A stretch of 64,000 bases of DNA. It comes from Glycomyces salinus (lineage in GTDB: Bacteria; Actinomycetota; Actinomycetes; Mycobacteriales; Micromonosporaceae). Numbering within the stretch: the stretch's first letter is position 1; every line of letters starts with the position of its first letter. The notes beneath the pieces were generated by a model. That model searched no databases and was not told the origin of the DNA. It saw only the letters and a program-made list of their open reading frames with translations. Of the stretch, positions 37,812-54,004 are shown one piece after another. The stretch lies in assembly GCF_016428645.1 (NCBI RefSeq), contig NZ_JAELXW010000034.1, forward strand, positions 1 to 64,000. The letters run 5' to 3'. A program made the translations under genes and the position numbers.

Positions 37812-40373
37812 ATGATGGCGAAGACTTCCGGGAAGGCGCGCAAGGCGGCGGCCAAGCGGTCCTCGTCGGCCAAGCGGAAGCCCACCGCTAAGAAGTCGGC
37901 GAAGAGAGCGGTCAAGAAGACGGCCAAGCGGGCGCCAGCTCAGCGAGGCAAGAGCACGACGGCCAAGGCCGCCGCGAAGAAGCGCCGTGCCGACGCCATC
38001 CCGGGCCCGATCGAGGCCGGCGGGATGGCGCTGCGCGGTCTGTGGGTCGGCACCGCCCGCGCGACCGGATGGGTGGCCCGCTCGGTCGGCAAGGAGGCCG
38101 CCACCGCCCGCGGGATCGACCCGGCCCACCGCCGCGACGGCCTGGGGCTGCTCTTGATCGCGGCGGCCATCGTGCTGGCGATGGCCGTGTGGTTCGACGT
38201 GGCCGGTCCCATCGGCGAGCATCTCGCCTTCGGTCTGGACTGGGGCCTCGGCCTGGCCACCCGCGTGCTGCCGGTGCTGCTGGTCCTGTGGGGACTGCGC
38301 GTGATGCGCCACAAGCCGCCCGAGGAGGCCCACGGCCGCTCCCTGGTCGGCTGGACGGCGATCTGGCTCGCCAGCCTCGGTCTGCTGCACATCATCTCCG
38401 GCCTGCCGGTCGATCTGGACGACCGCATGGCCGGGGGCGGCCAGATCGGTTGGATCATCGGCGGCGGCCTGGCCCTGGGCGTTTCGGCCTACGCGGCCTT
38501 CCCGCTGCTGGTCCTGCTGCTGCTGTTCGGCGTGCTGGTCGCCACCGCCACTCCGGTCAACCAGATCCCGGCCCGGCTCGTCCGGCTCTGGGAACTGGCC
38601 ACCGGCAAGGTCGAATCCTACGAGGACACCGAGGACGCCGAAGGGGAGCGGCCGATGACGCGCCGCCAGAGCCGGGCGGCCAAGAAACTCCAGGAAGAGG
38701 AGGCCCGCAACGTCCACCGCGCCACCACGGTCCTGCCGCGGCTGGCGCCCGAGGAGGTCCCCGAGCTCAACGCCGAGCCCGCCGCGGACCGGGAGACCAC
38801 CGCGATCCCCGAGCCGGTCAGGGAGCCGCCCAAGCACACCCCGCCACCGAAGAAGGTCGAGCAGCCGACCCTCTCCGAAGGCTCGGCCGCCATGGACGGC
38901 GACTACGTGCGCCCGCCGCTGAAACTGCTCCCGAGCGGCCCGGCCGCCAAGAAGCGCTCGAAGGCCAACGAGACGGTCATCGCCGCCCTCCAGGAGGTCT
39001 TCGAGCAGTTCAACGTGGACGCCGCGGTCACCGGGTTCACCCGCGGCCCGACCGTCACCCGCTACGAGATCGAGCTGGGACCGGCCGTCAAGGTCGAGCG
39101 GATCATCCAGCTGTCCAAGAACATCGCCTACGCGGTCAAGAGCCCCGACATCCGCATCATCAACCCGATCCCGGGCAAGAGCGCGGTCGGCGTCGAGATC
39201 CCCAACACCGATCGCGAGGACGTGGCCCTGGGCGACGTGCTGCGCAGCGACCTGGCCGCCTCCGACGACCACCCGATGATCGTGGGTCTGGGCAAGGACG
39301 TCGAGGGCGGCTACATCCTCACCAATCTGACGAAGACTCCTCACATGCTGATCGCCGGCGCCACCGGCTCGGGCAAATCCAGCTGCATCAACACCCTCCT
39401 GGGGTCGCTGCTGATGCGCTCGACCCCCGAGCAGGTCCGGCTCCTCCTGATCGACCCCAAGCGGGTCGAGCTGACCCAGTACGAGGGCATCCCGCACCTG
39501 GTCCACCCGATCGTGACCAACCCGAAGAAGGCCTCGGACGCGCTCCAGTGGGTGGTCAAGGAGATGGACATGCGGTACGAGGACCTCGCCAAGGCCGGGG
39601 TCCGCAACATCGACGACTTCAACCGCAAGGTCCGCTCCGGCGAGCTCAAGGCCGAGCCGGACGCCGAGCGCGAGCTGCGGCCCCACCCGTACCTGCTGGT
39701 GATCGTCGACGAGCTGGCCGACCTGATGATGGTCGCCGCCCGCGACGTCGAGGAGTCGGTCGTGCGCATCACCCAGCTGGCCCGGGCCGCCGGGATCCAC
39801 CTGGTGCTGGCGACGCAGCGGCCCTCGGTCGACGTGGTGACCGGGCTGATCAAGGCCAACGTGCCCTCGCGGCTGGCGTTCTCGACCTCGTCGCTGGCCG
39901 ATTCGCGGGTCATCCTCGACCAGCCGGGGGCCGAGAAGCTGGTCGGGCGCGGCGACGGCCTGTTCCTGCCGATGGGCGCCTCCAAGCCCGAGCGCATCCA
40001 GGGGGCCTGGGTCGGCGACGACGAGATCGAGAAGATCGTCGCGCACGCCAAGGACCAGATGGAGCCGCACTACATCGAGGAGGTCACCGCGCCCCCGGGG
40101 GAGAAGCGGGACATCGACCCCGACATCGGCGACGACCTGGAGGTGCTGTGCCAGGCGGTCGAGCAGGTCGTGACCACCCAGTTCGGCTCTACCTCGATGC
40201 TCCAGCGCAAGCTCCGGGTCGGCTTCGCCAAGGCCGGGCGCCTGATGGACCTGATGGAGACGCGCGGCGTCGTCGGGCCGTCCGAGGGCACCAAGGCCCG
40301 CGACGTGCTGGTCAAGCCCGAGGAGCTCGACGGCGTGATCGCCTCCATTCGCGGCGAGCCGGCCGGCCCCTAG
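37812..40373 (+). CDS. ftsK: DNA translocase FtsK
   Basis: An 853-residue septal DNA pump that clears chromosome ends during division. Residues 1-60 are very rich in Lys and Ala, followed by about four TM helices (110-250), a charged linker, the RecA-like motor with Walker A GATGSGKS at 516-523 and [10 protein letters not shown] as Walker B, and a C-terminal gamma winged helix ([16 protein letters not shown]) that reads orientation sequences. The Lys/Ala-rich start is typical of actinobacteria. The stop is eight bases from the convergent lipoprotein stop. Confidence 0.97.
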
Positions 40374-40381
40374 GACGGCCT

Positions 40382-41479
40382 CTAAGTGAAGTCGACCGAG
40401 ATGTCGTGGTTCTCGTCGCCGCTGATGTTCATGTCGACGCCGTGCTCGGTCCACTCGATCACACCGTCCGGATGGAACGAGAGGTCGAACTCCAGGGCAT
40501 CGGCCGGGACGTCGTATACCAGGGTGAAGTAGCGGCCGATGTCGCCGCCCTCCCACTCCTCGTCGGTGTGGTCGACGCTGGAGGGGGCCAGCTCGCCGTC
40601 GGGGCCCTCGACCTTGAGGACCTCTTCGGCGTCGATGTCCCAGATCAGGTCCAGTTCGGCCGATTCGCGCCACCACACGAACTCGATGGTCAGCCGGGCC
40701 CGGTCGTTCTCGGCCAGCCAGCCCTCGGTCTCGTTGTAGACCGACCGGTCGACCACGAACGAGGTCGAGTAGCCCCACCGGTCGAGGCTGTACTCGTAGC
40801 CGCCTTCGGACTTGGAGGCGCTGACCTCGTTCTCCACCCAGTCGGTGGTGATGGTCTGCCGCGAGCCGTGGTAGAGCGCTTCGATCAGTCCCTCGCGGGT
40901 GCGTTCACGCAGGTCGATCGATTGGACGCGCTCGGAGTCGTCGACGGTCAGCGAGATCGGGGCGTCCTTCTCGACGACGGTGAAGTAGGCCGCGCCGGGG
41001 GCCGGGGCCTCGCCGTCGAAGCTCCATTCGCGTTCGCCGACGCTCAGCGTGGCCGTCAGCTCGGTGTCGCCGTCCACCTGGAGCGGGGCCTCCACCTCCG
41101 GTTCGGGCGCGAACTGGATGAGCGCGAACTCGTACCCGGCCGGGGGCGGGTACAGCGCCTCGTCGTCGCCGAACAGGAGCCGGGTCTGGTAGCCGTCGGG
41201 GAACTCCTCGAAGGTCGCGACGCAGTCGACCTGCAGCGCGAAGTGCGGCCCGATGAGGGTGCCCTCCTCGGCGGGGAGGCGGTAATCGTCTCCGTCGGGG
41301 CACACCGATTCGGTCGCCTCGGTGTTGTCGAAACTGTATCCGGCGCTGGTGTTGAGGGTCCCGGACGGGACGTCGCCGCAGGCCGAGACGGCGAGCGCTC
41401 CGGCGGCGGCGAGGGCGAGCAGGGGGGCGCGTCTGCGGCCGGCATGGGCCTGGGCACTGGCGTTGCCGATGGGGGACAT
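40382..41479 (-). CDS. Putative lipoprotein, unknown family
   Basis: A 365-residue secreted lipoprotein: basic N-region, hydrophobic core and lipobox AVSAC (Cys34). The mature part is acidic, rich in Trp and Tyr, and reads like beta-sheet domains; I recognise no family. TAGGCT (41486-41491, minus) ends six bases before the ATG, so it is probably leaderless. It lies between ftsK and rimO, divergent from rimO. Confidence 0.72.
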
Positions 41480-41485
41480 AGGACC

Positions 41486-41491
41486 AGCCTA
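41486..41491 (-). promoter_or_regulatory. -10 hexamer TAGGCT of the lipoprotein gene
   Basis: TAGGCT on the minus strand ends six bases before the ATG at 41479. Confidence 0.5.
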
Positions 41492-41629
41492 TGGCATGGC
41501 CGCAAGGCTGGGGCCGCATCGTACAGGAGGACGAGCTTCGCCGCGCATATCGCCACGCGGAGGGGTGTAAAAATGTGGCCCCGGCCGCCGCGCGGCGACG
41601 GACGGGGCGCCGGTGGGTACGCTTTTGTG

Positions 41630-43078
41630 GTGTCAACAGCTCAACCGCCCGCAAAGACCGTAGCGGTCCTCACACTCGGCTGCGCCCGGAACGAGACCGA
41701 CTCCGAGGAGCTGGCCGCGCGGCTGGCGGCCGGCGGGTGGAGCGTGACCGGCGACGGCGAGAACGCCGACGTGGTCATGGTCAACACCTGCGGCTTCATC
41801 GAGCAGGCCAAGGCCGAGTCCATTGACGTGCTCCTCGACGCCTCCCAGACCGGCGCGAAGGTCGTGGCCACCGGCTGCATGGCCGAGCGCTACGGCACCG
41901 AGCTGGCCGAGAGCCTGCCCGAGGCCGACGCCGTGCTCGGCTTCGACCACTACCCGGACATGGCCGCCCGCCTCGACGACATCCTGGCCGGGAAGCACCT
42001 GGACTCGCACCGGCCCGGCGACCGCCGCAAACTCCTGCCGCTGTCCCCGGTCGACCGGCAGGCCGCGGCCACGGTCGTTCCCGGCCACACTCGGGCGGAG
42101 CAGGCCGAGGCCGCCGCCGACTTCGCCGGGGCCCCCGCCCACCTGTCGGTGGTGCGCAAGCGCCTGTCGACCGGCCCGGTCGCGAACCTGAAGATCGCCT
42201 CCGGGTGCGACCGCCGTTGCTCGTTCTGCGCCATCCCGTCCTTCCGGGGCTCGTTCGTCTCCCGCACCCCCGAGGAGATCGTCGCCGAGGCCGCGTGGCT
42301 GGCCGGGGACGGGGTCAAGGAGCTCAACCTGGTCTCGGAGAACACCACCTCCTACGGCAAGGACCTGTCGGACCCGGACGCGCTCGAGCGCGTCCTTGAG
42401 GGCCTGGCCGGGATCGACGGCATCGAGTGGATCCGCCTGTCCTACCTCCAGCCGGCCGAGCTGCGGCCGGGCCTGATCGAGGCCATGTCCCGCATCGACA
42501 AGGTCGTGCCCTACTTCGACCTGTCCTTCCAGCACGCCTCGGCGAAGGTGCTGCGCCGCATGCGCCGGTTCGGGTCGACCGAGAACTTCCTGGCCCTGCT
42601 CGAGCAGATCCGCTCCCGCGCTCCCGAGGCCGGTGCCCGCACCAACGTCATCGTCGGCTTCCCGGGCGAGACCGAGGACGACTTCGAGGAGCTGATCCGG
42701 TTCCTGTCCGAGGCCCGGCTCGACGCCACCGGCGTGTTCGCCTACTCCGACGAGGACGGCACCGAGGCGGTCGGCCTCGACGGCCACCTCGACCAGGACG
42801 TGGTCGACGAGCGGGTCACACGCGTGTCGATGCTGGTCGACGAGCTGGTCAGCCAGCGGGCCGCCGACCGGGTGGGCCAGACCGTGACCGTCCTGGTCGA
42901 ATCGGTGGCGGATGACGGCGTGGACGGGCGCGCGGCCCACCAGGCCCCGGAGGTCGACGGCTCGGTCGCGCTGGTCGGCGAGGTCGACCACCTGCGCGTC
43001 GGCGACTTCGTGACCGCGAAGGTGGTCGACTCGAACGGGGTCGACCTGGTAGCCGAGGTCCTGGAGGAGCCCCGGTGA
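41630..43078 (+). CDS. rimO: Ribosomal protein S12 methylthiotransferase
   Basis: A 482-residue radical-SAM enzyme adding a methylthio group to an Asp of ribosomal protein S12. The N-terminal domain carries three cluster cysteines ([25 protein letters not shown]); the radical-SAM cluster is C193-x3-C197-x2-C200 in [13 protein letters not shown]; a TRAM domain ends the chain. Of two adjacent GTG codons the second (41630) is chosen, since TACGCT ends six bases before it. The frame stays open far upstream, but only this part is a gene. The stop overlaps the pgsA GTG. Confidence 0.94.
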
Positions 43079-43656
43079 GGTCCGAGTCCCGGCCGGTGTC
43101 GCCGTGGAACATCGCCAATGTGGTGACCGTGGCCCGGATCTTCCTGGTCCCGGTCTTCGCGGTGTTCGTGGTCCTCTCCGGCATGGAGGACTCGGCGTGG
43201 CGGATGCTGGCCGCGGCACTGTTCGTGTTCATTTCGGCGACCGACTTCGTCGACGGCTGGCTGGCGCGCTCGCGGGGCCTGGTCACCGAGTTCGGCAAGC
43301 TCGCCGACCCGATCGCCGACAAGGCGCTGATCGGGACCGCGTTGGTCCTGCTGAGCTTCTACGACGCCCTCCTGTGGTGGGTGACGGCGCTGATCCTGTT
43401 GCGCGAGTTGGGGATCACCGCGCTGCGCGTGGCCGTGCTCAAGCACGCGGTCATCGCGGCCGGGCGCGGCGGCAAGCTCAAGACGGTGCTGCAGATCGCG
43501 GCCGTGGCCTGGTACCTGTGGCCGTGGCCCGAGCCGCTGGACGCGGTGGGTCCGTGGCTGATGGGGGCTGCGCTGCTCCTCACTGTCGGAACGGGAATCG
43601 ATTACCTCTGGAAAGCCTTTAAATTGAGGAGGGGTGACGCGGGCCGGACGCGCTAG
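43075..43656 (+). CDS. pgsA: CDP-diacylglycerol-glycerol-3-phosphate 3-phosphatidyltransferase
   Basis: A 193-residue integral membrane enzyme of phosphatidylglycerol synthesis. The CDP-alcohol phosphotransferase motif runs from Asp57 to Asp82 (D57-x2-D60-G-x2-A-R, then G74, D78, D82) and is complete. Several TM helices surround it. GTG start overlapping the rimO stop (GTGA), so translation is coupled. A cinA gene usually lies next in related genomes but is missing here. Confidence 0.93.
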
Positions 43657-43659
43657 GCT
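43633..43659 (+). promoter_or_regulatory. Candidate clgR promoter overlapping the pgsA stop
   Basis: GTGACG (43633-43638), a 15-base gap and TAGGCT (43654-43659) lie at the pgsA end; the TAG of TAGGCT is the pgsA stop codon. Transcription would begin near 43666, giving a leader of about 47 bases with GGAGGAG. Confidence 0.4.
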
Positions 43660-43712
43660 TGCAGAACCCACTTAGGCTCGATGAGAGCGAACGCGGCGTG
43701 GAGGAGAGTTCG

Positions 43713-44144
43713 ATGGTCTTGTTGCGGGAACTGCTGGGGGAGACCCTGCGACGACGCCGCCGCGCCCAGAAGCGCACGCTGCGGGATGTGTCCAAGCAGG
43801 CCAACGTGAGTCTGGGATACCTTTCGGAGATCGAGCGGGGGCACAAGGAGCCGTCGAGCGAGCTGCTGGCGAGCGTCTGCGGGGCGCTGCGAGTGCGGCT
43901 GTCCGAGGTTCTGGCCGAGGTCTCGCTGGAGGTCGCCGCGCATGAGCGGGGCGCCGACGGGCCGAGCCGTCAGGTCGCGGTCCTGCCGCTGCCGCGGGAT
44001 GCCGAGTCCGGCAAGGACACCCCCGATGAGCAGGCCCGACGTCGTCGCCCCGTGCCGCCCGGCGCGCCCGCTTCCATCGCGCAGGTCCGGTCTCGGCATC
44101 GTTGTGGCGAGGTGACCGATTCGGTCCTCCGCACGGCTGCCTGA
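43713..44144 (+). CDS. clgR: ClgR-type XRE transcriptional regulator
   Basis: A 143-residue activator. The helix-turn-helix is nearly the family consensus ([35 protein letters not shown] region). ClgR activates clp protease genes and, in mycobacteria, the psp envelope-stress genes. The ATG giving MVLLREL with GGAGGAG upstream is used; an in-frame TTG 54 bases earlier lies in the promoter. Its position between pgsA and pspA matches the mycobacterial clgR-pspA-pspM order. Confidence 0.88.
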
Positions 44145-44260
44145 GGGCGACCGATGATGTAGTTTTGGCTCATGAACCGGTCACCCTGGCGCGCATTCGT
44201 GGCGGGGATGTCCGACACTATAGGGAAGTCGGCGTTTACATCACCGGAAGGACCCCGATA

Positions 44261-45133
44261 ATGGCCAATCCGTTCGTCAAGGGCTGGAAGTACATGATGG
44301 CGCTGTTCGGTGCCAAGATCGACGAGCACGCCGACCCCAAGATCCAGATCCAACAGGCGATCGAGGAAGCGCAGAAGCAGCACCAGGTGCTGGTGGGGCA
44401 GGCGGCCTCGGTCATTGGGAATCAGCGTCAGCTCGAGATGAAGCTCAACCGGTCCATGGCCGAAGTGGAGCGTCTCCAGGCGCAGGCGCGGCAGGCATTG
44501 GTGTTGGCGGACAAGGCGCGTGCCGAGGGCGACGAGGCGAAGGCCCAGCAGTTCGAGCAGACGGCCGAGGTCCTGGCCAGCCAGCTGGTCTCCACCGAGC
44601 AGTCCCTCGAGGACATGAAGACCATGCACGACCAGGCGCTCAATGCCGCCGACCAGGCCAAGAAGGCCGTGGAGAACAACCAGATGATGCTCCAGCAGAA
44701 GCTGCAGGAGCGCACGAAGCTGCTCGGCCAGTTGGAGCAGGCCAAGATGCAGGAGACCATCGCCTCGTCCCTGGAGTCGATGTCGCAGACGGCCGCGCCC
44801 GACAACGTGCCGAACTTCGGGGAGATCCGCGACAAGATCGAGGGCCGCTACGCCAACGCGATGGGCCGCGCCGACCTGGCCAGCAACTCCGTCGAGGGGC
44901 GCCTGCTGGAGGTCAACCGGGCCAGCCGCGACATGGCCGGGGCCTCCCGCCTGGATCAGATCCGGTCCTCCCTGGAGGGCGACAAGCTCTCCGGTTCCTC
45001 CGGCCAGTCCTCCTCGACCGCCACTCCGGCGGTGGAGTCGTCCAAGGAGACGGTCACCGACGCCCGCCTGGCCGACATCCGCGCCAGCATGGAAGAGGGC
45101 GGCACGGCCGAGGCCGACTCGACCAAGGGCTGA
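44261..45133 (+). CDS. pspA: Phage shock protein A (PspA/IM30)
   Basis: A 290-residue membrane-repair protein. The N-terminal amphipathic helix ([21 protein letters not shown]) binds stressed membranes and residues 25-220 are almost all coiled coil. The Ser/Thr-rich C-terminal part is an actinobacterial extension. A TATAGG at 44219-44224 may be its own -10, and GGAAGG precedes the ATG. The next gene, PspM-like, starts 18 bases downstream. Confidence 0.93.
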
Positions 45134-45151
45134 CCCCGGAAGGAAACCCCA

Positions 45152-45949
45152 GTGGACGCCAAGGCCCGCAAGCGCGCCAGACGGCGCCTGCGAGGTCGGC
45201 TGTCCTCGGCCAGGTTCTGGACCGCCGTCTCCGGCGCCTCGGTCGCCGGGTCGGCCTTCTTCGTGCCGTTCGACGGCCTGACCGGTTCCGACGGGGTCTG
45301 GGTCGTCGTCGCCGGATTCTCCACCGCTCTGGCGGTGCTGCGCTGGCTCGACTACCGGCGGCTGTCGCGCCTGATGCCCGCCGAGCGGGACTCGCTCGAA
45401 CTGCACGGCGCGGCCGTCCTCGGCGACGAGGTCCGCGGCTTCTTCGGCGAGGCCGCCGGGGCCCTGCGGCGCGAGCGCATCCGCAAGCAGTTCCGCCGCA
45501 GCGCCGCCTGGGGTCCCTACCAGCGTCTCGAGCGCGCCAGCGTGACCGCCGAGCAGATGGCGGACCGTCTCGGCGACCATCCCGACGCCGCCGAGGTCCT
45601 CGCGCGCGCGTCCACGGCCGGGCCGGAGCTGTACCGCCTCGCCTTGACCGTCCGGGACGTCGAGCAGGCGATGAAGATCACCGGCGGGCCCCGGCGGGAC
45701 GCGCTCGGGGCCGAGCGCGACCGCCTGGTCGAGCGCCTCGTCGCCGGGGTGGACGCCTACGAGGACATGGTCTCTGCCGCCGGGGAGTGCCTGGCCGGGT
45801 CGGTCGGGCTGCGGGAGGCGCTGGCCGCGAACGGCCACGACCGGACCTTGGAGACCCTCACCGACGCCGCCGAGCGGCTGCGCGCGGCCGGGGCCGCGGC
45901 CAGCGAGATCCGAGGCAAGGTCGAACTCCCCGAACGTGAAATATCCTAA
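45152..45949 (+). CDS. pspM: PspM-like envelope-stress membrane protein
   Basis: A 265-residue protein: a basic N-terminus, two TM helices around residues 22-65, and a long alpha-helical cytoplasmic part rich in Ala, Arg and Glu. Its size, topology and place after clgR-pspA match mycobacterial PspM (Rv2743c type), which docks PspA at the membrane. The assignment leans on context. GTG start with AAGGAAA upstream. Confidence 0.75.
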   Translation: MDAKARKRARRRLRGRLSSARFWTAVSGASVAGSAFFVPFDGLTGSDGVWVVVAGFSTALAVLRWLDYRRLSRLMPAERDSLELHGAAVLGDEVRGFFGEAAGALRRERIRKQFRRSAAWGPYQRLERASVTAEQMADRLGDHPDAAEVLARASTAGPELYRLALTVRDVEQAMKITGGPRRDALGAERDRLVERLVAGVDAYEDMVSAAGECLAGSVGLREALAANGHDRTLETLTDAAERLRAAGAAASEIRGKVELPEREIS

Positions 45950-45966
45950 TTTGGTCTAATTCGGGA

Positions 45967-46653
45967 ATGATCAAGCAGTGTTCCCGAGTCGCGCTGATAG
46001 CGTCTGGTCTCATGCTCGCCGCGGCGGTTCCCGCCCATGCCGCCGAGCTTCCGGGCGAGCCCGTGACCGTGCAGCTCAAGGGCGCGCCCGAACTGGCGCT
46101 CGCCTGGGGCGGTGACGGCGCGGTCATCGCCTCCGATGGCGACCTGTGGTCGTTCCGCCCGGTCGAGGCCATGGTCGACGCCGGTGAGGTCCTCATCGTG
46201 CACGAGGACGGCGGCGAGTGCCTGACCCCGTCCGAGTCCGGCCCGCCGGAGGCGGCCCCGCTCGAACTGGTCGACTGCGCCGACGCCGAGACGTGGGCGG
46301 CCGTGTTCGACGACATCGCCTCCAACCAGGACTGGAGGTTCACCGATCCCGAAGGGCGGTTCCTCGGTCTCGCGCCGGGCGTCGAGCCGGTCGACGGGGC
46401 GCCTGTCGTCGCCGAGGCCGTGCTGGGCACCAGCAGCGTCCACGACCAGGAGTGGCTGTTCGAGTCGGCCCCGGAGGAGACCCCGCCGCCCCAGAAGGAG
46501 TCCCCCGAGTCGCCCTCGGAGGTCGCGCAGCCGAAGCTTCCGACGACCGGCGCCGGAGTCGCCGTCGGCGCCGCCGGCGCGGTGGCCGCGATCGGTGCGG
46601 GGGTCGGCGTGCTCATGTGGCTGCGCCGCCGCAGCCTGCGCGTCAACTGGTGA
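45967..46653 (+). CDS. LPxTG-anchored surface protein
   Basis: A 228-residue secreted protein. The signal peptide ends near residue 25 (AHAAE). The domain that follows has paired Trp/Asp repeats (LWSFRPVEAM, QDWRFTDPEGRFLGLAPG, QEWLFESAP) reminiscent of ricin-type carbohydrate-binding folds. The end has LPTTG at 191-195, a hydrophobic helix and a basic tail, a sortase sorting signal. The sortase is not in this window. It begins 18 bases after the pspM-like stop. Confidence 0.8.
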   Translation: MIKQCSRVALIASGLMLAAAVPAHAAELPGEPVTVQLKGAPELALAWGGDGAVIASDGDLWSFRPVEAMVDAGEVLIVHEDGGECLTPSESGPPEAAPLELVDCADAETWAAVFDDIASNQDWRFTDPEGRFLGLAPGVEPVDGAPVVAEAVLGTSSVHDQEWLFESAPEETPPPQKESPESPSEVAQPKLPTTGAGVAVGAAGAVAAIGAGVGVLMWLRRRSLRVNW

Positions 46654-46705
46654 CACACCGTTTCCCATATGTCGGGAAATGCTGGTTCGCCCGGGTGGTC
46701 GGTGG

Positions 46706-46711
46706 CATACT
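46706..46711 (+). promoter_or_regulatory. -10 hexamer of the cimA leader
   Basis: CATACT ends seven bases before the GTG of the leader peptide at 46719, so transcription should start at that codon. A weak -35 (CTGGTT, 46682-46687) lies 18 bases upstream. Confidence 0.5.
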
Positions 46712-46718
46712 TCCAGTC

Positions 46719-46772
46719 GTGACCTTCCAGCTCATTATTAGCTGCGGGCGCTCGGTGGAGCATCGACTCTAG
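46719..46772 (+). CDS. Putative cimA leader peptide with Leu-Ile-Ile
   Basis: A 17-residue frame (GTG start, TAG stop) reading VTFQLIISCGRSVEHRL in genomic code, the first residue being Met if used as start. Consecutive Leu-Ile-Ile codons are CTC, ATT, ATT; ATT is a rare Ile codon in this DNA, which would heighten sensitivity. It lies in a leader with two hairpins, the second an intrinsic terminator, upstream of an isoleucine-pathway gene. This is the layout of ribosome-mediated attenuation. Confidence 0.6.
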   Translation: MTFQLIISCGRSVEHRL

Positions 46773-46790
46773 ATGCCGTCACCGAGCGCC
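46747..46790 (+). promoter_or_regulatory. Leader hairpin covering the peptide stop codon
   Basis: An 11-bp perfect stem (46747-46757 with 46780-46790) encloses an inner 5-bp stem (46760-46764 with 46772-46776). The TAG stop of the leader peptide lies at the inner loop, so a ribosome on the leader would open it. Confidence 0.6.
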
Positions 46791-46819
46791 AGACCTCCTG
46801 CATGGCAGGGGGTCTTTTT
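46791..46819 (+). terminator. Attenuator terminator upstream of cimA
   Basis: Bases 46791-46801 pair with 46805-46815 (11 bp with one G-U) around a 3-base loop, followed by TTTTT, a textbook intrinsic terminator. It starts right after the first leader hairpin and ends about 75 bases before the cimA start. It is the only terminator in the window with a clear U-tract. Confidence 0.75.
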
Positions 46820-46894
46820 CGTTGGAGCAGAACCACCGTTCAGGCGGTCCCCGCGAACGCACAACAGCAGTCCCGAAACCAACTGGAGCACAAC

Positions 46895-48505
46895 GTGACG
46901 CATACACACACCGGCGGAGAGTTCCACGTCTTCGACACCACGCTCCGCGACGGCGCGCAGATGGAGGGCCTCCGCTACTCGGTGGCCGACAAGCTCGCCG
47001 TGGCCGAGCTGCTCGACGAGCTCGGTGTCGACTACATCGAGGGCGGCTGGCCCGGGGCGATCCCGTCGGACACCGAGTTCTTCGCCAGAGCCGCCGAGGA
47101 GCTGAACTTCAAGCACGCCAAGCTCGTCGCGTTCGGGATGACGCGCCGGGCCGGGGCCACGGCCGAGACCGACCCCGGCTACCGGGCGCTCCTCGACTCT
47201 CGGGCCCCGGTGCTGTGCCTGGTCGCCAAGTCCGACATGCGCCATGTCGAGCAGGCCCTGCGCACCACCCCCGAAGAGAACCTCGAGATGATCACCGACT
47301 CGGTGCGCACCGGCCGCGAACACGGCCGCGAAGTGTTCATCGACTGCGAGCACTTCTTCGACGGCTTCCGCCACGACCCCGAATACGCGACCCTGGTGGT
47401 GCGCACCGCGCTCGAAGCCGGCGCCGAAGCGGTCGTCCTGTGCGACACCAACGGCGGACGCATCCCCTCCGACATCACCGAGGCCGTCACCGACCTGCGC
47501 CGCCGCCTCGAAGCCGACCTGCCTCCCGAGCGGGTCCGCCTCGGCATGCACGCCCAGAACGACACCGGCTGCGCCGTCGCCAACACCATCGCCGCCGTCC
47601 AGGCCGGGGTCATGCACGTCCAAGGCACCGCCAACGGCTACGGCGAGCGCCCCGGCAACGCCAACCTGTTCAGCGTCGTGGCCATCCTCGAGACCCAGCT
47701 CGGCATGAAGGTCCTGCCCGACGGCGGCCTGGAGAACCTCACCCGCATCTCGCACGCCGTCGCCGAGATCGCGAACATGGCCCCCGACGAGCACGCCCCC
47801 TACACCGGGCACGCCGCCTTCGCCCACAAGGCCGGACTCCACGCCTCCGCGATCAAGGCCGACCCGGCCCTGTACAACCACATCGAGCCCACCGCGGTCG
47901 GCAACGACATGCGCATCCTGGTCACCGAGATGGCCGGGCGCGCGTCGGTCGAACTCAAGAGCCGCGAACTGGGCGTCGACCTCTCCGAGGACCGGGACGC
48001 CCAGGACCGGATCACCGCCCGCGTGAAGGAACTGGAGTCCAAGGGCTGGTCCTTCGAAGCCGCCGACGCCTCCTTCGAACTGCTGGTCCGCGACGAGGTC
48101 GAGGGCGGCCTGCCGCGGCCGTTCACCCTCGACACCTACCGCGTCATCGTCGACCACGACCCGGACGGCGAGACCGTCGCCGAGGCCACGGTGCGGCTCG
48201 ACGTCGACGGTGATCGCGTCATCGCCACAGCCGAGGGCAACGGCCCGGTCAACGCGCTCGACGCCGCGCTCCGCAAGGCCCTGTCCGAACGCCACCCGCG
48301 CCTGGCCGAGCTGACCCTCTCGGACTTCAAGGTCCGCATCCTGGCCGGGTCCACCGGGACCGACGCGGTCACCCGCGTCCTGATCTCCATGAGCGACGGC
48401 CGCCACGAGTGGACGACCGTCGGAGTCGCGCCGAACATCATCGAGGCCTCCTGGAACGCCCTGTGCGACGGGCTGGCGTACGGCCTCAACCGCCGCCGGG
48501 CATGA
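46895..48505 (+). CDS. cimA: Citramalate synthase
   Basis: A 536-residue enzyme of the isopropylmalate synthase family. The TIM barrel starts with FDTTLRDGAQMEG (Arg18/Asp19), includes LGMHAQNDTGCAVAN and the GTANGYGERPGNANL motif, then AFAHKAGLHASA. The C-terminal regulatory domain has the allosteric LeuA fold (YRVIVDHDPDG... then TGTDAVTRVLI). It condenses pyruvate and acetyl-CoA to citramalate, giving 2-ketobutyrate for isoleucine without threonine. The GTG at 46895 has GGAG eight bases upstream. The leader shows attenuation elements. Confidence 0.92.
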   Translation: MTHTHTGGEFHVFDTTLRDGAQMEGLRYSVADKLAVAELLDELGVDYIEGGWPGAIPSDTEFFARAAEELNFKHAKLVAFGMTRRAGATAETDPGYRALLDSRAPVLCLVAKSDMRHVEQALRTTPEENLEMITDSVRTGREHGREVFIDCEHFFDGFRHDPEYATLVVRTALEAGAEAVVLCDTNGGRIPSDITEAVTDLRRRLEADLPPERVRLGMHAQNDTGCAVANTIAAVQAGVMHVQGTANGYGERPGNANLFSVVAILETQLGMKVLPDGGLENLTRISHAVAEIANMAPDEHAPYTGHAAFAHKAGLHASAIKADPALYNHIEPTAVGNDMRILVTEMAGRASVELKSRELGVDLSEDRDAQDRITARVKELESKGWSFEAADASFELLVRDEVEGGLPRPFTLDTYRVIVDHDPDGETVAEATVRLDVDGDRVIATAEGNGPVNALDAALRKALSERHPRLAELTLSDFKVRILAGSTGTDAVTRVLISMSDGRHEWTTVGVAPNIIEASWNALCDGLAYGLNRRRA

Positions 48506-48509
48506 GCGA

Positions 48510-48537
48510 GGGCCCGGTACGGATCGGTACCGGGTCC
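48510..48537 (+). terminator. cimA terminator hairpin
   Basis: Bases 48510-48520 pair with 48527-48537 (one G-U) around a 6-base loop, four bases after the cimA stop and just before the convergent gene's stop. Confidence 0.65.
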
Positions 48538-48550
48538 TGAACCTCGTCCG

Positions 48551-49693
48551 TCAGTCGAAGACGGCCAGCCGCTTCTGCTCCATCTCCCCGTCGCCGAAGG
48601 TGGTGAACGACCCGCCCGCGGCCAGGTTCGAGCCGCGCGGATGGGTCTTGAGGTCCCACACCCCGATCACGCCGTTCGCGCCCGGGTTCCACCGCAGCAG
48701 GTTCCCGTCCGTGTCGACCGCCAGCAGCTTGCCGCGGTCGGCCAGTACCCCGTCGACGCATTCGCCAGTCGGGCCCGACCTGTTGGTGGTGCACGCCCGG
48801 TCGAAGTGGCCCCCGGCGATGACCGTCCCGTTCCAGACGGCCACGGCCTGCATGCCGCCGTCCACCCCCTGGTACCAGAGGGTGTCGCCGTCCTGGTCGA
48901 AGGCGCGGACCTCGCCGCCGCGGCCGTCCAGCGCCGCGTACACCTGGTCGCCGTAGAGGGTGATCTGCCTGGTGAGCACGAAGATCCGCGGATCGAAGTC
49001 CCGGTCGAGGTCGCCGTCGCCGGCCTCGAACGCCGCGAGCTTGCCGTACCGCTTCTCGTTCTCGGCGTAGCTGAAGGAGCCGGAGACGTAGAGCCGGCCG
49101 TGCCCGTACTCGATGTCGCGCACCGATCCCTCCTGGAGGCTCGGAGTGAACGACTCGACCACCGCGCCGGTGTCGGCGGTGACCGCGGCCAGGTACCTTC
49201 TCTCGGTCTGGCCGACCTTGGCGAACCGCCCGCCCAGGTACACCCGGTCGCCGAGCGGCTCTATGGCGAACACCGTCGCCGACGGGCCGGGCCTCCATGT
49301 CGTGTCGAGCCGGCCGCTGTCGAGCCGGAAGCGGGCCACGCGCGGCGTGTAAGTGTCGTCGATGTAGCGGAAGTTCCCGGCCACGTACAGGTAGCCGCCG
49401 TGGGCGACCACGTCGTAGACCTTCCCGTCGAGCTCCGGCGCGAACGGCAGCAGCCGGCCGCTGACCGAGTCGATCGCGGCCAGGTAGTATCGCCGGTCGA
49501 ACTCGCCGTCGACATCGCGGGCGCGGGTGAACATGCCGCCGACGTACAGCACGTCGCCGTCGTAGGCGACCTTGCGCACATCGTCATTGAAGGAGGCGGT
49601 GGACCGGGGAAGGTCTTCGTCGATCGCGCTCGCGGGGACCTGTGCGACCAGGACCACCAGTAGCAGTGTGAGGATTGTGAGTGCACGGCGCAT
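48551..49693 (-). CDS. Secreted beta-propeller-like repeat protein
   Basis: A 380-residue protein with a signal peptide (residues 1-23, ASAID). The mature part consists of about seven repeats of the type DVLYVGGMFTRA...YLAAIDSVSGRLLPFAP, as in DUF5122/delta-60 and PQQ-like beta-propellers, so it is likely extracellular and adhesive or binding. The ATG before the signal peptide is used; an in-frame ATG at 49774 would add a 27-residue basic extension. A minus-strand TAGTAC (49785-49790) could be the promoter. Confidence 0.78.
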   Translation of the reverse strand: MRRALTILTLLLVVLVAQVPASAIDEDLPRSTASFNDDVRKVAYDGDVLYVGGMFTRARDVDGEFDRRYYLAAIDSVSGRLLPFAPELDGKVYDVVAHGGYLYVAGNFRYIDDTYTPRVARFRLDSGRLDTTWRPGPSATVFAIEPLGDRVYLGGRFAKVGQTERRYLAAVTADTGAVVESFTPSLQEGSVRDIEYGHGRLYVSGSFSYAENEKRYGKLAAFEAGDGDLDRDFDPRIFVLTRQITLYGDQVYAALDGRGGEVRAFDQDGDTLWYQGVDGGMQAVAVWNGTVIAGGHFDRACTTNRSGPTGECVDGVLADRGKLLAVDTDGNLLRWNPGANGVIGVWDLKTHPRGSNLAAGGSFTTFGDGEMEQKRLAVFD

Positions 49694-49799
49694 TGCGGCA
49701 GTCTCGCACGATCGGGGCCCGACTGGCCGTTTCGACACGGCGCGTCGCCGTCGCGGGCGTGAAACCTCCGCCATCGCCCGGCCGTACTAGAGTTGAACC

Positions 49800-50147
49800 G
49801 TGACTTCCTACAAGACCGAACGTGCCCGTGCCGCGGCCCGCGCCGCCGACTCGGCGGTGTACTCGCGACGCCGTTTCGGCTCCGGGTTCCTCCTCGGCCT
49901 GGTGATTCATCTCATCTTCGCCTTCGCGCTGGGGTTCGTCCTGGTCGACAACGTGGGGTCGACGCTGGGCGCGCGCCTCGGTTCCACCGCCATCTCCTGC
50001 CTGATCGCGACCCCGGTGGTGTTCGCGCTGGGCTTCGCGATCGGTCTCTCCGGGAAGCTGCGCCGCCTCGGCATGGGCGTGGTGCTCGGCGCCCTGCTCG
50101 GCACCGTCCTGATCGTGGTCCCCTTCCTCCTGCTCAATGTAATCTGA
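49800..50147 (+). CDS. Small membrane protein, unknown function
   Basis: A 115-residue protein with a basic N-terminus (about 25 residues) and three TM helices (about 30-50, 63-83, 92-113). No family recognised. GTG start; TAGAGT (49788-49793) ends six bases before it, so the mRNA is probably leaderless. Forty-three bases separate it from the next gene. Confidence 0.65.
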   Translation: MTSYKTERARAAARAADSAVYSRRRFGSGFLLGLVIHLIFAFALGFVLVDNVGSTLGARLGSTAISCLIATPVVFALGFAIGLSGKLRRLGMGVVLGALLGTVLIVVPFLLLNVI

Positions 50148-50190
50148 GGCCGACAGCTTCGAACCACGGATCCTCAGAGAGGGGCGCAGT

Positions 50191-50967
50191 GTGCGCATCG
50201 CACGGATAGCCCACGCCACCGGCATGTCATTCGCGGTACTGGAAGGGGAGGGCCCCGGCGCGACGGCCGCCGAGATCGAGGGCCACCCCTTCGCGCAGAT
50301 CAAGATGACCGGCCAGCGTTGGGCGCTGGAGGACGTGCGGCTGCTCGCGCCGATCCTGCCCTCCAAGGTCGTGTGCGTGGGCCGCAACTACGCCGAGCAC
50401 GCCGCCGAGCTCGGCAACGAGGTCCCCGACGAGCCGCTGATCTTCATCAAGCCGTCCACGTCGATCATCGGCCCCGGAGAGGCCGTCCGCATCCCGGCGG
50501 TCTCGGACCAGGTCGAGCACGAGGCGGAACTGGCCGTCGTCGTCGGCCTGCCCGGCGCCCGCGGCATCGACAAAGACACCGCCGCGGCCTCGATCTTCGG
50601 CTACACCTGCGCCAACGACGTCACCGCCCGCGACCTCCAGCGCAAGGACGTCCAGTTCACGCGCGCCAAGGGCTTCGACTCCTTCTGCCCGCTCGGGCCC
50701 TGGATCGAGACCGACTTCGACCCCGGGGACGCCGAGATCCGCTGCGAGGTCGGCGGCGAGGTCCGCCAACTGGGCTCCACCAAGGACATGGTCTTCGACC
50801 CGGCCACCCTGATCTCCTACATCTCCCAGGTCATGACGCTCCTGCCCGGCGACGTGGTCCTGACCGGCACCCCGGCGGGCGTCGGGCCGCTGCAGAGCGG
50901 CGAAACCGTATCCGTCTCCGTCGCCGGCATCGGCGAACTGTCCAACAAGGTGATCGACAGTGAGTAG
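50191..50967 (+). CDS. Fumarylacetoacetate hydrolase family protein
   Basis: A 258-residue metal-dependent hydrolase of the FAH family. VCVGRNYAEHAAELG, the metal ligands in VEHEAELAVVVG, NDVTARDLQRKDVQFTRAKGFDSFCPLGPW and LTGTPAGVGPL are all present. Relatives act as acylpyruvate hydrolases or oxaloacetate decarboxylases; the substrate is open. GTG start with AGAGGGG upstream. It overlaps gltX by eight bases; this pair is conserved in mycobacteria. Confidence 0.9.
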   Translation: MRIARIAHATGMSFAVLEGEGPGATAAEIEGHPFAQIKMTGQRWALEDVRLLAPILPSKVVCVGRNYAEHAAELGNEVPDEPLIFIKPSTSIIGPGEAVRIPAVSDQVEHEAELAVVVGLPGARGIDKDTAAASIFGYTCANDVTARDLQRKDVQFTRAKGFDSFCPLGPWIETDFDPGDAEIRCEVGGEVRQLGSTKDMVFDPATLISYISQVMTLLPGDVVLTGTPAGVGPLQSGETVSVSVAGIGELSNKVIDSE

Positions 50968-52426
50968 CGTCCGCACCCGCTTCTGCCCCAGCCCGACCGG
51001 CCTGCCGCACGTCGGCCTGGTCCGCACCTGCCTGTTCTCGTGGGGCTACGCCCGCGCCAAGGGCGGCCGGTTCGTCTTCCGCATCGAGGACACCGACGCC
51101 GTCCGCGACTCCGAGGAGTCTTACCACCAGCTCATCGAGGCCCTCTCGTGGCTCGGCATGGGCTGGGACGAGGGCCCCGACATCGGCGGCCCCCACGCGC
51201 CATACCGGCAGTCCGAGCGCGGCGACGTCTACGCCGACGTCATCGAGCGCCTGGTCGAAGGCGGCTTCGCCTACGAGGCGTTCAGCACCAATGAAGAGGT
51301 CGAGGCCCGACACCGCGCGGCCGGCCGCGACCCCAAGCTCGGCTACGACAACTTCGACCGGGACCTGACCGAGGAGCAGAAGGCCGCCTTCCGCGCCGAG
51401 GGCCGCAAGCCGGTCTACCGGATGCGTATGCCCGATGAGGACATCGTCTTCGTCGACGCCGTCCGCGGCGAGGTGCGCACCCCGGCCGGGACCGTGCCCG
51501 ACTACGTCGTCGCCCGGGCCGACGGCTCCCCGCTCTACACGCTGACCAACCCGGTCGACGACGCGCTCATGAAGATCAACATGGTCGTCCGCGGCGAGGA
51601 CCTGCTGTCCTCGACCCCGCGCCAGATCGTCATGTGGCGGGCCCTGATCGAGCTCGGCCTGGCCGACGAGGTGCCCGAGTACGCCCACCTGCCGCTCATC
51701 GTCGACGAGCGCGGCAAGAAGATGTCCAAGCGCGACCCGCGCTCGGACCTGCTCAAGTACAAGCGCGAGGGCTACCTGCCCGAGGGCGTGCTCAACTACG
51801 TCGCCACGCTCGGCTGGTCCATCTCGGGCGACCGCGACGTGTTCACCGTCGCCGAGTTCCTCGAGAAATTCGACCTCCACGACGTCAAGTCGAACCCGGC
51901 GCGCTTCGACGAGAAGAAGTTCGACGCGATCTGCGCCGACCACTTCCGCGCCGTCGACCCGGGCGAGCTGACCGAGATGCTCGTCCCGTGGCTCCAGAAG
52001 GCGGCGCTGCTGCCCGACGAGCCGACCGAGGAGCAGCGGCACGTGCTGGCCGTGGCCGTCCCGCTGGTGCAGGAGCGCTGCACGACCCTGGGGCAGGCGG
52101 TCGAGATGCTGCGGTTCCTGTTCTGCGGCAAGGAGGTTCCAATCGACGAGGCGAGCGTCAAGAAGACCTTCAAGGGCGACGCCGCCGAGGTCCTGGACGC
52201 CTCGATCGCCGCGCTCGAGGACATCGAGTGGACCACTGAGGCCATCGAGGGGGCCCTCAAGGAGGCCCTGGTCGAGGGCATGGGCCTCAAGCCGCGCAAG
52301 GCGTTCGGCCCGGTGCGCGTCGCGATCAGCGGCAAGACCGTCTCGCCGCCGCTGTACGAGTCGATGGAGCTGCTGGGCAAGGACGTGAGCCTGACGCGGC
52401 TGCGCTCGGCCCGCGCCTCCCTCTGA
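50960..52426 (+). CDS. gltX: Glutamate-tRNA ligase
   Basis: A 488-residue class I aminoacyl-tRNA synthetase that charges tRNA-Glu. The HIGH-type motif reads PHVG at residues 16-19 as in other actinobacteria, and KMSKR is at 254-258. The anticodon-binding helical domain follows. GTG start overlapping the FAH-family gene end. In genomes lacking GlnRS it also misacylates tRNA-Gln for GatCAB. A very strong hairpin follows. Confidence 0.97.
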   Translation: MSSVRTRFCPSPTGLPHVGLVRTCLFSWGYARAKGGRFVFRIEDTDAVRDSEESYHQLIEALSWLGMGWDEGPDIGGPHAPYRQSERGDVYADVIERLVEGGFAYEAFSTNEEVEARHRAAGRDPKLGYDNFDRDLTEEQKAAFRAEGRKPVYRMRMPDEDIVFVDAVRGEVRTPAGTVPDYVVARADGSPLYTLTNPVDDALMKINMVVRGEDLLSSTPRQIVMWRALIELGLADEVPEYAHLPLIVDERGKKMSKRDPRSDLLKYKREGYLPEGVLNYVATLGWSISGDRDVFTVAEFLEKFDLHDVKSNPARFDEKKFDAICADHFRAVDPGELTEMLVPWLQKAALLPDEPTEEQRHVLAVAVPLVQERCTTLGQAVEMLRFLFCGKEVPIDEASVKKTFKGDAAEVLDASIAALEDIEWTTEAIEGALKEALVEGMGLKPRKAFGPVRVAISGKTVSPPLYESMELLGKDVSLTRLRSARASL

Positions 52427-52433
52427 GAACGAC

Positions 52434-52474
52434 CGCACGGGACCGGCTCCGCTCTGCGGAGCCGGTCCCGTGCG
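52434..52474 (+). terminator. gltX terminator, 19-bp perfect hairpin
   Basis: Bases 52434-52452 and 52456-52474 are exact complements around a 3-base loop, beginning seven bases after the gltX stop. Confidence 0.88.
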
Positions 52475-52491
52475 TATCCGGCGCTGGCCAC

Positions 52492-52515
52492 TACTGTGCA
52501 TTGAATGGTACTGTG
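52492..52515 (+). promoter_or_regulatory. PadR promoter with TACTGTG direct repeats
   Basis: TACTGTG occurs at 52492-52498 and 52509-52515, 17 bases apart. The second copy contains TACTGT, a -10 ending six bases before the GTG at 52521. The regulator could bind both copies and silence its own leaderless promoter. Confidence 0.45.
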
Positions 52516-52520
52516 TAAGA

Positions 52521-52853
52521 GTGGATAGATCGCAACTGCTCAAGGGCCTGCTCGACATCATCGTCCTGCGGGTCTTGGAGACCGGTGACGCCTACGGCTA
52601 TGAGATCCTGCGGCGCCTGCGCGGCTCCGGGTTCGACGAGCTCGGCGACGCCTCGGTGTACGGGACGCTCAGGCGCCTCTACCGGTCGGGGCACCTGTCC
52701 ACCTACGTCCAGCCCAGCGAGTCGGGCCCGAACCGCAAGTACTACGCGCTGACCGAGACCGGGCGCAAGCACTTGAGCGGGATGCGCGAGGCATGGGAGG
52801 ACGTGAGCGCCAAGATGCAGGCACTGTTCGATTCGCCGAAGGGGCAACCATGA
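52521..52853 (+). CDS. PadR family transcriptional regulator
   Basis: A 110-residue PadR-type regulator. The winged helix contains LLKGLLDIIVLRVLETGDAYGYEI and the wing YGTLRRLYRSGHL; a single C-terminal dimerisation helix makes it the short subfamily. The GTG giving VDRSQLLKG is the start, supported by the -10 six bases upstream. Its stop overlaps the ATG of the next gene (ATGA). PadR genes are often followed by a membrane partner, as here. Confidence 0.9.
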   Translation: MDRSQLLKGLLDIIVLRVLETGDAYGYEILRRLRGSGFDELGDASVYGTLRRLYRSGHLSTYVQPSESGPNRKYYALTETGRKHLSGMREAWEDVSAKMQALFDSPKGQP

Positions 52854-53941
52854 CCGACACTCCTCAAGGGGCCGCCGATGTCGCAGAGTACCGTCTCGCG
52901 GTCGAGAGGCACCTGGCCGACCTGCCCGAGCCGATCCGTGAGGACCTCCTCAACGGTCTAGAGGATCACCTGACCGAGGTCGCCGCCGATCGCGAACCCG
53001 GCACCACGCTCGAGGATCTGCTCGGTAGGCCCGAGGCGTACGCCCGTGAACTCCGCGAGACCGCAGAGATCGAGTCCGAGGGCCGCCGCGATGGGTTCTG
53101 GCGGTCCGTCCAGGCCGGCTTGGAGCCGTCGGTGACGTGGATCCGAGCGAAGACCGAACAGTACACCGCCAGCGCCGGTGTCGGGGAGGCCGGAGAGTTC
53201 CGCAGGAAGCTGAAACCTGGCTGGTGGGTGCTGCGCGGCCTCGCCGCGGCGGCTCTGGTCTACTACTTGATCGCCGGTGGGGCGGTACTGGTCACCCTCC
53301 CGGTCCTGAGTGAGGGCATCGTCCAACTCCTGGTCTTCGCCGTCATGGCGCTGCCATTCGTGTGGCTCTCGCTTCGGCTCGGCGCGATGTCGGAACAGTG
53401 GGGAATCGGCCGTCGCCGGCTGGTGGCGCTCGGCGGAGTCGTTCTCGTTTGGCTGGGCCTGCTGCCGTACGCTACCTTGCCGAGCCTCTACGGTCCGGAC
53501 TACGGCCAGTCTTTCGTCGCCGACTTCGAGGACCCGAACGAGGGCGTCACGAACATCTATCCCTATACCGAAGACGGTGAGCCGTTGGCCGGTGTCTACC
53601 TGTTCGACCAGGACGGGAACCCGCTGTGGATCGGCGACCCCGACGCCTGCGACAGGCTGCACGAGGATCCTTTCGGGGCCGAAGGGTATTCCGATGAGGC
53701 GGTACCGACGCCGGACCCGTTGGAGGAGGGGTCCTACGACGAGGCTGAGTACGGGTATCTCTATCCACTGTGTGACTCGGACCCGTGGCCGACCGATGAA
53801 GCGAGCGGGTTGCCGGTTCCGGAGGATTCCGGGGCCAGCGGGCCCACGGGCGAGCAGGCCACCGAGCCCGTCGATCCCGGCGGGGAGCAGTCCACCGCTC
53901 CGGCCGAGGACTCGACCCCCTCGCCTGAACCCACCGAGTAG
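52850..53941 (+). CDS. PadR-linked HAAS-type membrane protein
   Basis: A 363-residue protein. Residues 10-80 (EYRLAVERHLADLPEPIREDLLNGLEDHLTEV region) match the HAAS-type helical domain that accompanies PadR regulators. Three TM helices follow (about 125-210), then an extracytoplasmic Asp/Glu/Pro-rich region of about 140 residues ending in Ser/Pro/Glu-rich sequence. Coupled to padR by overlap. It may sense the envelope and inform the regulator; this is inferred from context. Confidence 0.72.
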   Translation: MTDTPQGAADVAEYRLAVERHLADLPEPIREDLLNGLEDHLTEVAADREPGTTLEDLLGRPEAYARELRETAEIESEGRRDGFWRSVQAGLEPSVTWIRAKTEQYTASAGVGEAGEFRRKLKPGWWVLRGLAAAALVYYLIAGGAVLVTLPVLSEGIVQLLVFAVMALPFVWLSLRLGAMSEQWGIGRRRLVALGGVVLVWLGLLPYATLPSLYGPDYGQSFVADFEDPNEGVTNIYPYTEDGEPLAGVYLFDQDGNPLWIGDPDACDRLHEDPFGAEGYSDEAVPTPDPLEEGSYDEAEYGYLYPLCDSDPWPTDEASGLPVPEDSGASGPTGEQATEPVDPGGEQSTAPAEDSTPSPEPTE

Positions 53942-54004
53942 GGTCGCGCACCCAACGTCACGGCCTGCGATGCCGGTCGGGCCCGGATTCCCCGGTATGT
54001 GAGA

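Follow-up and report, generated by a model that had tools for sequence, protein, structure and literature searches.

Based on the analysis of a 64,000 nt stretch of DNA from Glycomyces salinus (the window), we conclude that the citramalate synthase gene cimA is likely controlled by an isoleucine-sensing, ribosome-mediated transcription attenuator. Taken jointly, the start site, the stalling of the ribosome, termination and antitermination themselves are inferred with a high degree of confidence. How a waiting ribosome would act on the terminator is a more tentative matter; the anatomy of the element suggests, as a possibility, that it occludes the terminator by means of a collapsed distance.

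All parts of the element are located on the forward strand. CATACT (46706–46711), the −10 element of a presumed leaderless promoter, lies 7 nt ahead of the GTG of a leader-peptide ORF (46719–46772), which reads through 17 codons to a TAG and encodes MTFQLIISCGRSVEHRL. A Leu codon (CTC, 46731–46733) directly precedes the two putative regulatory Ile codons, ATT ATT (46734–46739), of which the second (46737–46739) is the conserved one. The predicted hairpin 1 (46747–46790), for which covariation was found in relatives, has an outer stem of 11 bp plus one G-U (46747–46758 with 46779–46790) and an inner stem of 5 bp (46760–46764 with 46772–46776), and carries the leader stop TAG (46770–46772) in its upper part. 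With zero gap it is followed by an intrinsic terminator with a U-run (46791–46819), which has a stem of 11 bp (46791–46801/46805–46815), a loop of 3 nt, the 11 nt long 5′ arm AGACCTCCTGC and a T-run at 46815–46819; 21 nt separate the stop codon from it. A ribosome-binding site (GGAG, 46885–46888) precedes the GTG start (46895) of cimA, the gene presumably controlled (46895–48505), and CimA matches TIGR00977 with 609.6 bits (cut-off 450, E-value of 3.8e-183). This anatomy confirms an initial annotation of the region, which had placed CATACT seven bases before a 17-codon frame, an 11+5-bp hairpin over the leader stop, and an 11-bp hairpin with TTTTT ahead of cimA: coordinates and counts were verified in the sequence, the outer stem gained its G-U pair, and the second hairpin and the gene were recovered by folding, terminator scan and the TIGR00977 match.

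The region 46700–46900 folds at −83.4 kcal/mol (z = −4.06), and none of 200 dinucleotide shuffles was equally stable. Two overlapping terminator-like sites were detected by the terminator scan in 46500–47000, compared to 0.2 expected. The terminator pattern was found once in this genome, and a covariance model of the element gave a single real match in the Glycomyces genome (46.9 bits; the next hit reaches 17.4 bits, E-value of 0.42). No Rfam family (Rfam 15, including T-box) was found at its gathering score in 40000–54000 of the window, and five loci with the element gave sub-threshold hits only, of 28.1 bits (gathering 50) and 25.8 bits (gathering 43).

Several further observations were made around the element. 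In the predicted fold of the window, the leader codons at 46727–46746 fold into a small hairpin whose loop contains the Ile codons. An in-frame ATG at 46802, within the terminator loop, opens a 567-aa cimA ORF and, taken as a wrong cimA start in automatic annotation, could mask the leader. A second ORF, starting from an ATG after or overlapping the leader stop, was dropped, as neither its frame nor its end is constant across the 22 loci of the genus; in the window it would cross the terminator and stop at a TGA that overlaps the start of cimA, and its ATGC also belongs to the inner stem. Upstream of cimA, a PspM-like phage-shock gene (45152–45949; NF047839, 161.8 bits) is followed by an ORF at 45967–46653 that has no NCBIfam match.

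A simple sigma-70 consensus scan scored no promoter, at CATACT included; the promoter call relies on where the CATACT hexamer is placed and on its being identical throughout the 22 loci of the genus. There, TGGCATACT is found at the same place in every case, this promoter and most of the leader are nearly identical, and TGGAGCAC precedes the cimA start in most loci. The leader stop occupies one of two positions and may be TAG, TAA or TGA with the frame kept, as would be expected for a translated ORF.

Conservation beyond the genus was examined in 56 upstream regions (L001–L056), selected from cimA matches alone in 61 genomes; five genomes with weak or split cimA matches (G041, G043, G049, G056, G058) were left out of this set. 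The element was recognized, by eye and by script, ahead of cimA in 51 of the 56 regions, including all 22 of the genus. The other five (L039, L047, L051, L053, L054) lack it and gave no covariance-model match even with all filters off. Outside the genus the peptides differ (MTSYVLIIGT, MTHHVLIICD, MKHTTSQLIIC, MTGFCITS, and others), each with Ile immediately ahead of hairpin 1. In 25 relatives from other genera, the two hairpins (19 pairs) are 95.5% paired, with both-sided base changes in 7 of the 19 pairs, a result reached by none of 500 shuffles; structures slid along the alignment drop to at most 58% paired. Of the 8 pairs counted in hairpin 1, 4 show both-sided changes, at 92.4% of cells paired; for the terminator the figures are 3 of 11 and 97.8%. 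A lack of conservation of the peptide codons or the U-tract hairpin in relatives had been set beforehand as what would refute the initial reading as leader-peptide attenuation; both the Ile codon and the hairpin are kept, which supports this reading.

With the covariance model R1, 186 of 296 genomes of the class match at E ≤ 0.001, in 90 of 115 genera, a number that counts genomes with a model match and not cimA genes with an element, as some matches precede other genes. cimA itself is found in 236 of the 296 genomes (TIGR00977, E 1e-100). Model match and cimA coincide in 179 genomes, seven have a match without TIGR00977 at 1e-100 (G063, G069, G092, G110, G176, G252, G301), and 57 have cimA without a match at E 0.001; thus, the element is not needed for cimA everywhere. 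Among the matches listed with both places, the element lies 32–232 nt (median 73) upstream of cimA on the same strand in 96 of 97 genomes, and, again among the matches listed, 20 f8 genomes without cimA (E 1e-100) are also without the element. For genomes outside the matches listed, 20 cimA loci were inspected, of which five have the element and 15 do not; three of these 15 belong to model-positive genomes (G096, G114, G144), so the model match must sit elsewhere in them. Among the best 80 named loci, the element is present in 45 of 45 loci from Glycomyces, Stackebrandtia, Micromonospora, Streptomyces, Kitasatospora, Microlunatus and others (L177–L221), and in none of 35 from Acidimicrobiia, Actinomyces culturomici, two further actinobacterial MAGs, Chloroflexi, Bacillota and others (L222–L256).

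Some loci deviate from this picture. For L277:612-1397 (−) and L056 (genome G034, same family), a genome with no full cimA retains the Ile element ahead of a 261-aa ORF. In CimA this ORF has a match to the C-terminal portion alone (337–521 of TIGR00977), and it resembles an orphan regulatory domain controlled by isoleucine. L266 and L268 lack the element, and their cimA appears leaderless. In other element-free loci, the gene ahead of cimA is one we take to be ilvE (L262–L265, L272) or leuB (L039, L047), so operon structure may have replaced attenuator control there. Five cimA loci of family f32 (L257–L261) have no detectable element; by eye, three of them (L257–L259) have a GC-rich upstream stretch in common, which may be another kind of leader.

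For counts on single elements, 146 loci were annotated and reduced to 132. Four were dropped as duplicates before counting (L058, L067, L169, L170), five as the script found no terminator (L047, L051, L053, L071, L144), and five as failed or without an element (L039, L054, L120, L152, L159); model matches do exist in the dropped L071, L120, L144, L152 and L159. Four loci were anchored by hand (L041, L042, L128, L147). All 132 elements have a leader ORF whose stop codon lies at hairpin 1 or within it, with start codons picked by script. Hairpin 1 and the terminator adjoin without a gap in 119 elements, and are 1 nt apart in 11 and 2 nt apart in two. One element, L163, has the codons Leu-Val-Val and was excluded from the counts on 131 elements; as the model that yielded 80 of these 131 already contained the zero gap and the Ile codons, the unbiased set is that of the 51 cimA-derived loci found without the model, in which the gap is 0 in 49 and 1 in two.

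An Ile codon starts 8–15 nt before hairpin 1 in 131 of the 132 elements, L163 being the exception, and the last Ile codon is found 6–14 nt before it. Within the genus, several relatives have Met or Val in place of the first Ile, and the second Ile is kept in all. ATT makes up 165 of the 260 Ile codons located 6–15 nt before hairpin 1 in the 131 elements; in the window, ATT is used for none of the 20 Ile codons of cimA and for one of 54 in five other genes. The product of cimA feeds isoleucine synthesis. At other model matches, 20 further loci were analyzed and their downstream genes identified, four proteins by NCBIfam names and the others by conserved motifs: ilvB in 12, leuS in three, leuA in two and cimA in two, the match in L105 having no leader ORF and no such gene downstream and looking like chance. 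At the same distance from hairpin 1, the ilvB-linked leaders have LVL (6), VVV (3), VVL, LVI or RVV, those of leuS have RLL or LLL, and those of leuA LLLI or LLLT. That the codon tracks the downstream gene is the strongest evidence for the peptide as sensor, and, judged by its codons, the amino acid sensed by the cimA element is isoleucine.

The initial annotation had left the signal as isoleucine or leucine. Leucine, or any branched-chain amino acid, would agree with the CTC or CTG directly ahead of the Ile codons in the window and in many relatives, but within 6–15 nt of hairpin 1 Ile is present in all 131 cimA-type elements, Leu in only 27 and Val in 12. The isoleucine part of that claim stands, therefore, and a leucine or general branched-chain signal is very improbable. 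Even less credible is that the structure does not regulate cimA at all and is instead a small RNA, or else the terminator of another unit together with a gene for a small protein. Such a reading would suit the strength of the terminator and the completeness of the peptide ORF; however, between families the peptide is unconserved outside its Ile codons, whereas codon position, zero gap and the neighboring cimA are kept.

The other two alternatives concern how hairpin 1 would act. It could be an antiterminator as in a classical or C. glutamicum-type switch, either taking bases of the terminator or pairing its loop with the 3′ arm. For C. glutamicum ilvBNC, the available part of one study reports mutational support for an antiterminator that adjoins the terminator and has a boundary trinucleotide in common with it (PMC11857589), and a second (PMC10272879) proposes for ilvB-II that the P1 loop pairs with the right shoulder of the terminator. 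Further, the loops of several elements are C-rich, so that pairing with the G-rich arm would be possible. For both arms of the terminator, the energy of pairing with upstream RNA was set against dinucleotide shuffles. In E. coli controls (500 shuffles), z for the 5′ arm was −4.60 for thrL (p 0.00), −1.71 for trpL (p 0.08), −1.68 for leuL (p 0.08), −2.17 for hisL (p 0.02) and −2.48 for ilvL (p 0.02), the values of trpL and leuL indicating moderate power for a single sequence. No pairing antiterminator was detected against the 5′ arm in the 131 elements (mean z +0.29, none below −2), and neither the 3′ arm with upstream RNA (mean z +0.16, 4/131 below −2) nor the loop of hairpin 1 with the 3′ arm (mean z +0.10, 3/131 below −2) showed such pairing; among 16 ilvB, leuS and leuA relatives, no 5′-arm z fell below −1.4. 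As to an overlap at the boundary, hairpin 1 extends into the terminator arm by 1 bp in two elements and not at all in 129; the bases flanking it are mostly A-A (55/131) or G-A (49/131). A 3-bp helix across a small internal loop is possible in 3 of 131, compared to 17.1% (sd 3.1%) in 200 shuffles; this is rarer than in shuffles, but the rows are related and counter-selection is not claimed. Such a switch is accordingly unlikely, and a mechanistic step other than the classical one is needed. The initial annotation had conceded as its weak point that no antiterminator clearly competes with the terminator stem; this was a genuine property common to the elements and not an oversight. Equally doubtful is that hairpin 1 alone, without ribosome contact, disturbs the terminator in the RNA exit channel, or is a pause hairpin that times the ribosome. 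The zero gap would suit this reading, as would the 11 nt from hairpin 1 to the end of the terminator 5′ arm in the window. A distance of 11 nt is the spacing of the his and trp pause hairpins. However, if hairpin 1 alone sufficed, untranslated RNAs would read through and blunt the off-state, and a strict pause spacing would not predict terminator arm lengths that differ between families, as is observed.

Direct occlusion by the ribosome is instead suggested by the distances. With its gap, hairpin 1 is 22–79 nt long in the 131 elements (71–79 nt in five long forms and 63 nt in a sixth), and the linear distance from the Ile codon to the terminator accordingly spans 34–89 nt (sd 10.2). With hairpin 1 folded, and with the Ile codon closest to 11 nt taken for the computation, the distance collapses to 8–14 nt (sd 1.0). 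In all 131 the stop codon is at least 20 nt from the terminator; relative to the start of hairpin 1, its position ranges from 5 nt upstream to 23 nt downstream (before the hairpin, within 5 nt, in 73 elements and inside in 58). According to the proposed mechanism, transcription would probably start at the leader GTG itself, 7 nt after the −10 element, so that the first ribosome would load at the 5′ end of the RNA. With sufficient Ile-tRNA, it would reach the stop codon, open hairpin 1 and leave; the terminator would then fold, giving an RNA of about 100 nt that ends near 46819. When isoleucine is short, the ribosome would wait on the Ile codon with its front edge just touching the base of hairpin 1, which would fold. 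In E. coli, the A site is 11–12 nt from the front edge of the ribosome, a value that may differ here. As no nucleotide separates the end of hairpin 1 from the terminator, the stalled ribosome would be brought to an effective 8–14 nt from the terminator and block its closing, and RNA polymerase would continue into cimA.

Terminator repression by nearby ribosomes has been quantified in E. coli: in the accessible part of Li et al. (PMC4824070), a stop codon a few bp away leads to near-full repression, termination is near maximal beyond about 30 bp, and 10–15 nt of free RNA from the A site are estimated to be needed. Occlusion is favored over the other readings because the folded distance falls within this range, the linear distance lies outside it and the distance from the stop codon is longer. 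In the window, stop codon and terminator are 21 nt apart; at 17–18 bp, Li et al. measured termination at 0.12 in one of two series but at 0.8 in the second, and the off-state may therefore be leaky.

Regarding known systems, the cimA elements have the general marks of an attenuator, namely codons for the pathway product in the peptide and an intrinsic terminator between peptide and gene. The ilvB leaders (S. lividans ilvL, C. glutamicum ilvBNC/ilvB-II motif, M. tuberculosis ilvB1) likewise combine a short peptide with branched-chain codons, hairpins and a terminator, but precede another gene and use other codons; the ilvB-linked relatives found here have the same zero-gap architecture. Published models for ilvB of C. 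glutamicum and M. tuberculosis include a pairing antiterminator or a common boundary trinucleotide, neither of which was detected in the cimA elements: these have the adjacency known from C. glutamicum ilvBNC but not boundary bases that pair either way. In M. tuberculosis ilvB1, replacing the regulatory codons of the leader abolishes induction, as stated in the available part of the study (PMC13236596). The leuS and leuA leaders of Streptomyces (S. lividans leuL1, leuL2) also have a leader peptide, and leuS a terminator, with Leu codons in contrast to Ile in the cimA elements; our three leuS and two leuA relatives have a zero gap as well. The leuS attenuators are described as classical ones with antiterminators in the part of Seliverstov 2005 (PMC1262725) at hand, and the S. 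lividans leuA leader as being without a typical terminator in the corresponding part of PMC8079986. The classical thr, trp, leu, his and ilv attenuators of E. coli resemble the cimA element in having end-product codons in the leader peptide and a terminator before the first gene; however, the 5′ arm of their terminator is complementary to upstream RNA, which is not the case in the cimA elements. E. coli pyrBI senses UTP through RNA polymerase pausing. There, as related in the accessible part of PMC4824070, a ribosome near the terminator blocks it directly, without an antiterminator, which is like the step proposed here. In contrast to pyrBI, the cue at cimA would be Ile-tRNA and a hairpin would set the distance of the ribosome, placing it at 8–14 nt when folded, compared with a pyrBI-type range of about 10–15 nt and with 34–89 nt unfolded. 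It is therefore conceivable, though we hold this view with reserve, that a class of actinomycete attenuators (cimA, ilvB, leuS, leuA) works without an antiterminator, a hairpin that adjoins both the waiting ribosome and the terminator shortening the distance between them, by which the starved ribosome itself would prevent the terminator from forming.

Among the papers listed from the open-licence literature searched, none was seen to describe a cimA attenuator. In the parts of two surveys that were accessible, Seliverstov 2005 (PMC1262725) gives trp, ilvB, leuS, leuA, cys and ileS elements in Actinobacteria and none for cimA, and cimA is likewise absent from the eight leader peptides of the S. 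lividans study (PMC8079986). Attenuation of this kind is known, and it is the cimA member and the apparent lack of a pairing antiterminator that are new to the literature searched. In many members of the class, among them Streptomyces and Micromonospora, the element would place entry into the citramalate route under an additional, isoleucine-specific control. Attenuator components are missing before several actinobacterial amino-acid genes, according to the same part of Seliverstov 2005 (PMC1262725), and the cimA element offers a clean test of this old puzzle. If a hairpin indeed switches a terminator through the distance of the ribosome, a simple rule of spacing would allow the prediction of attenuators that have no competing fold.
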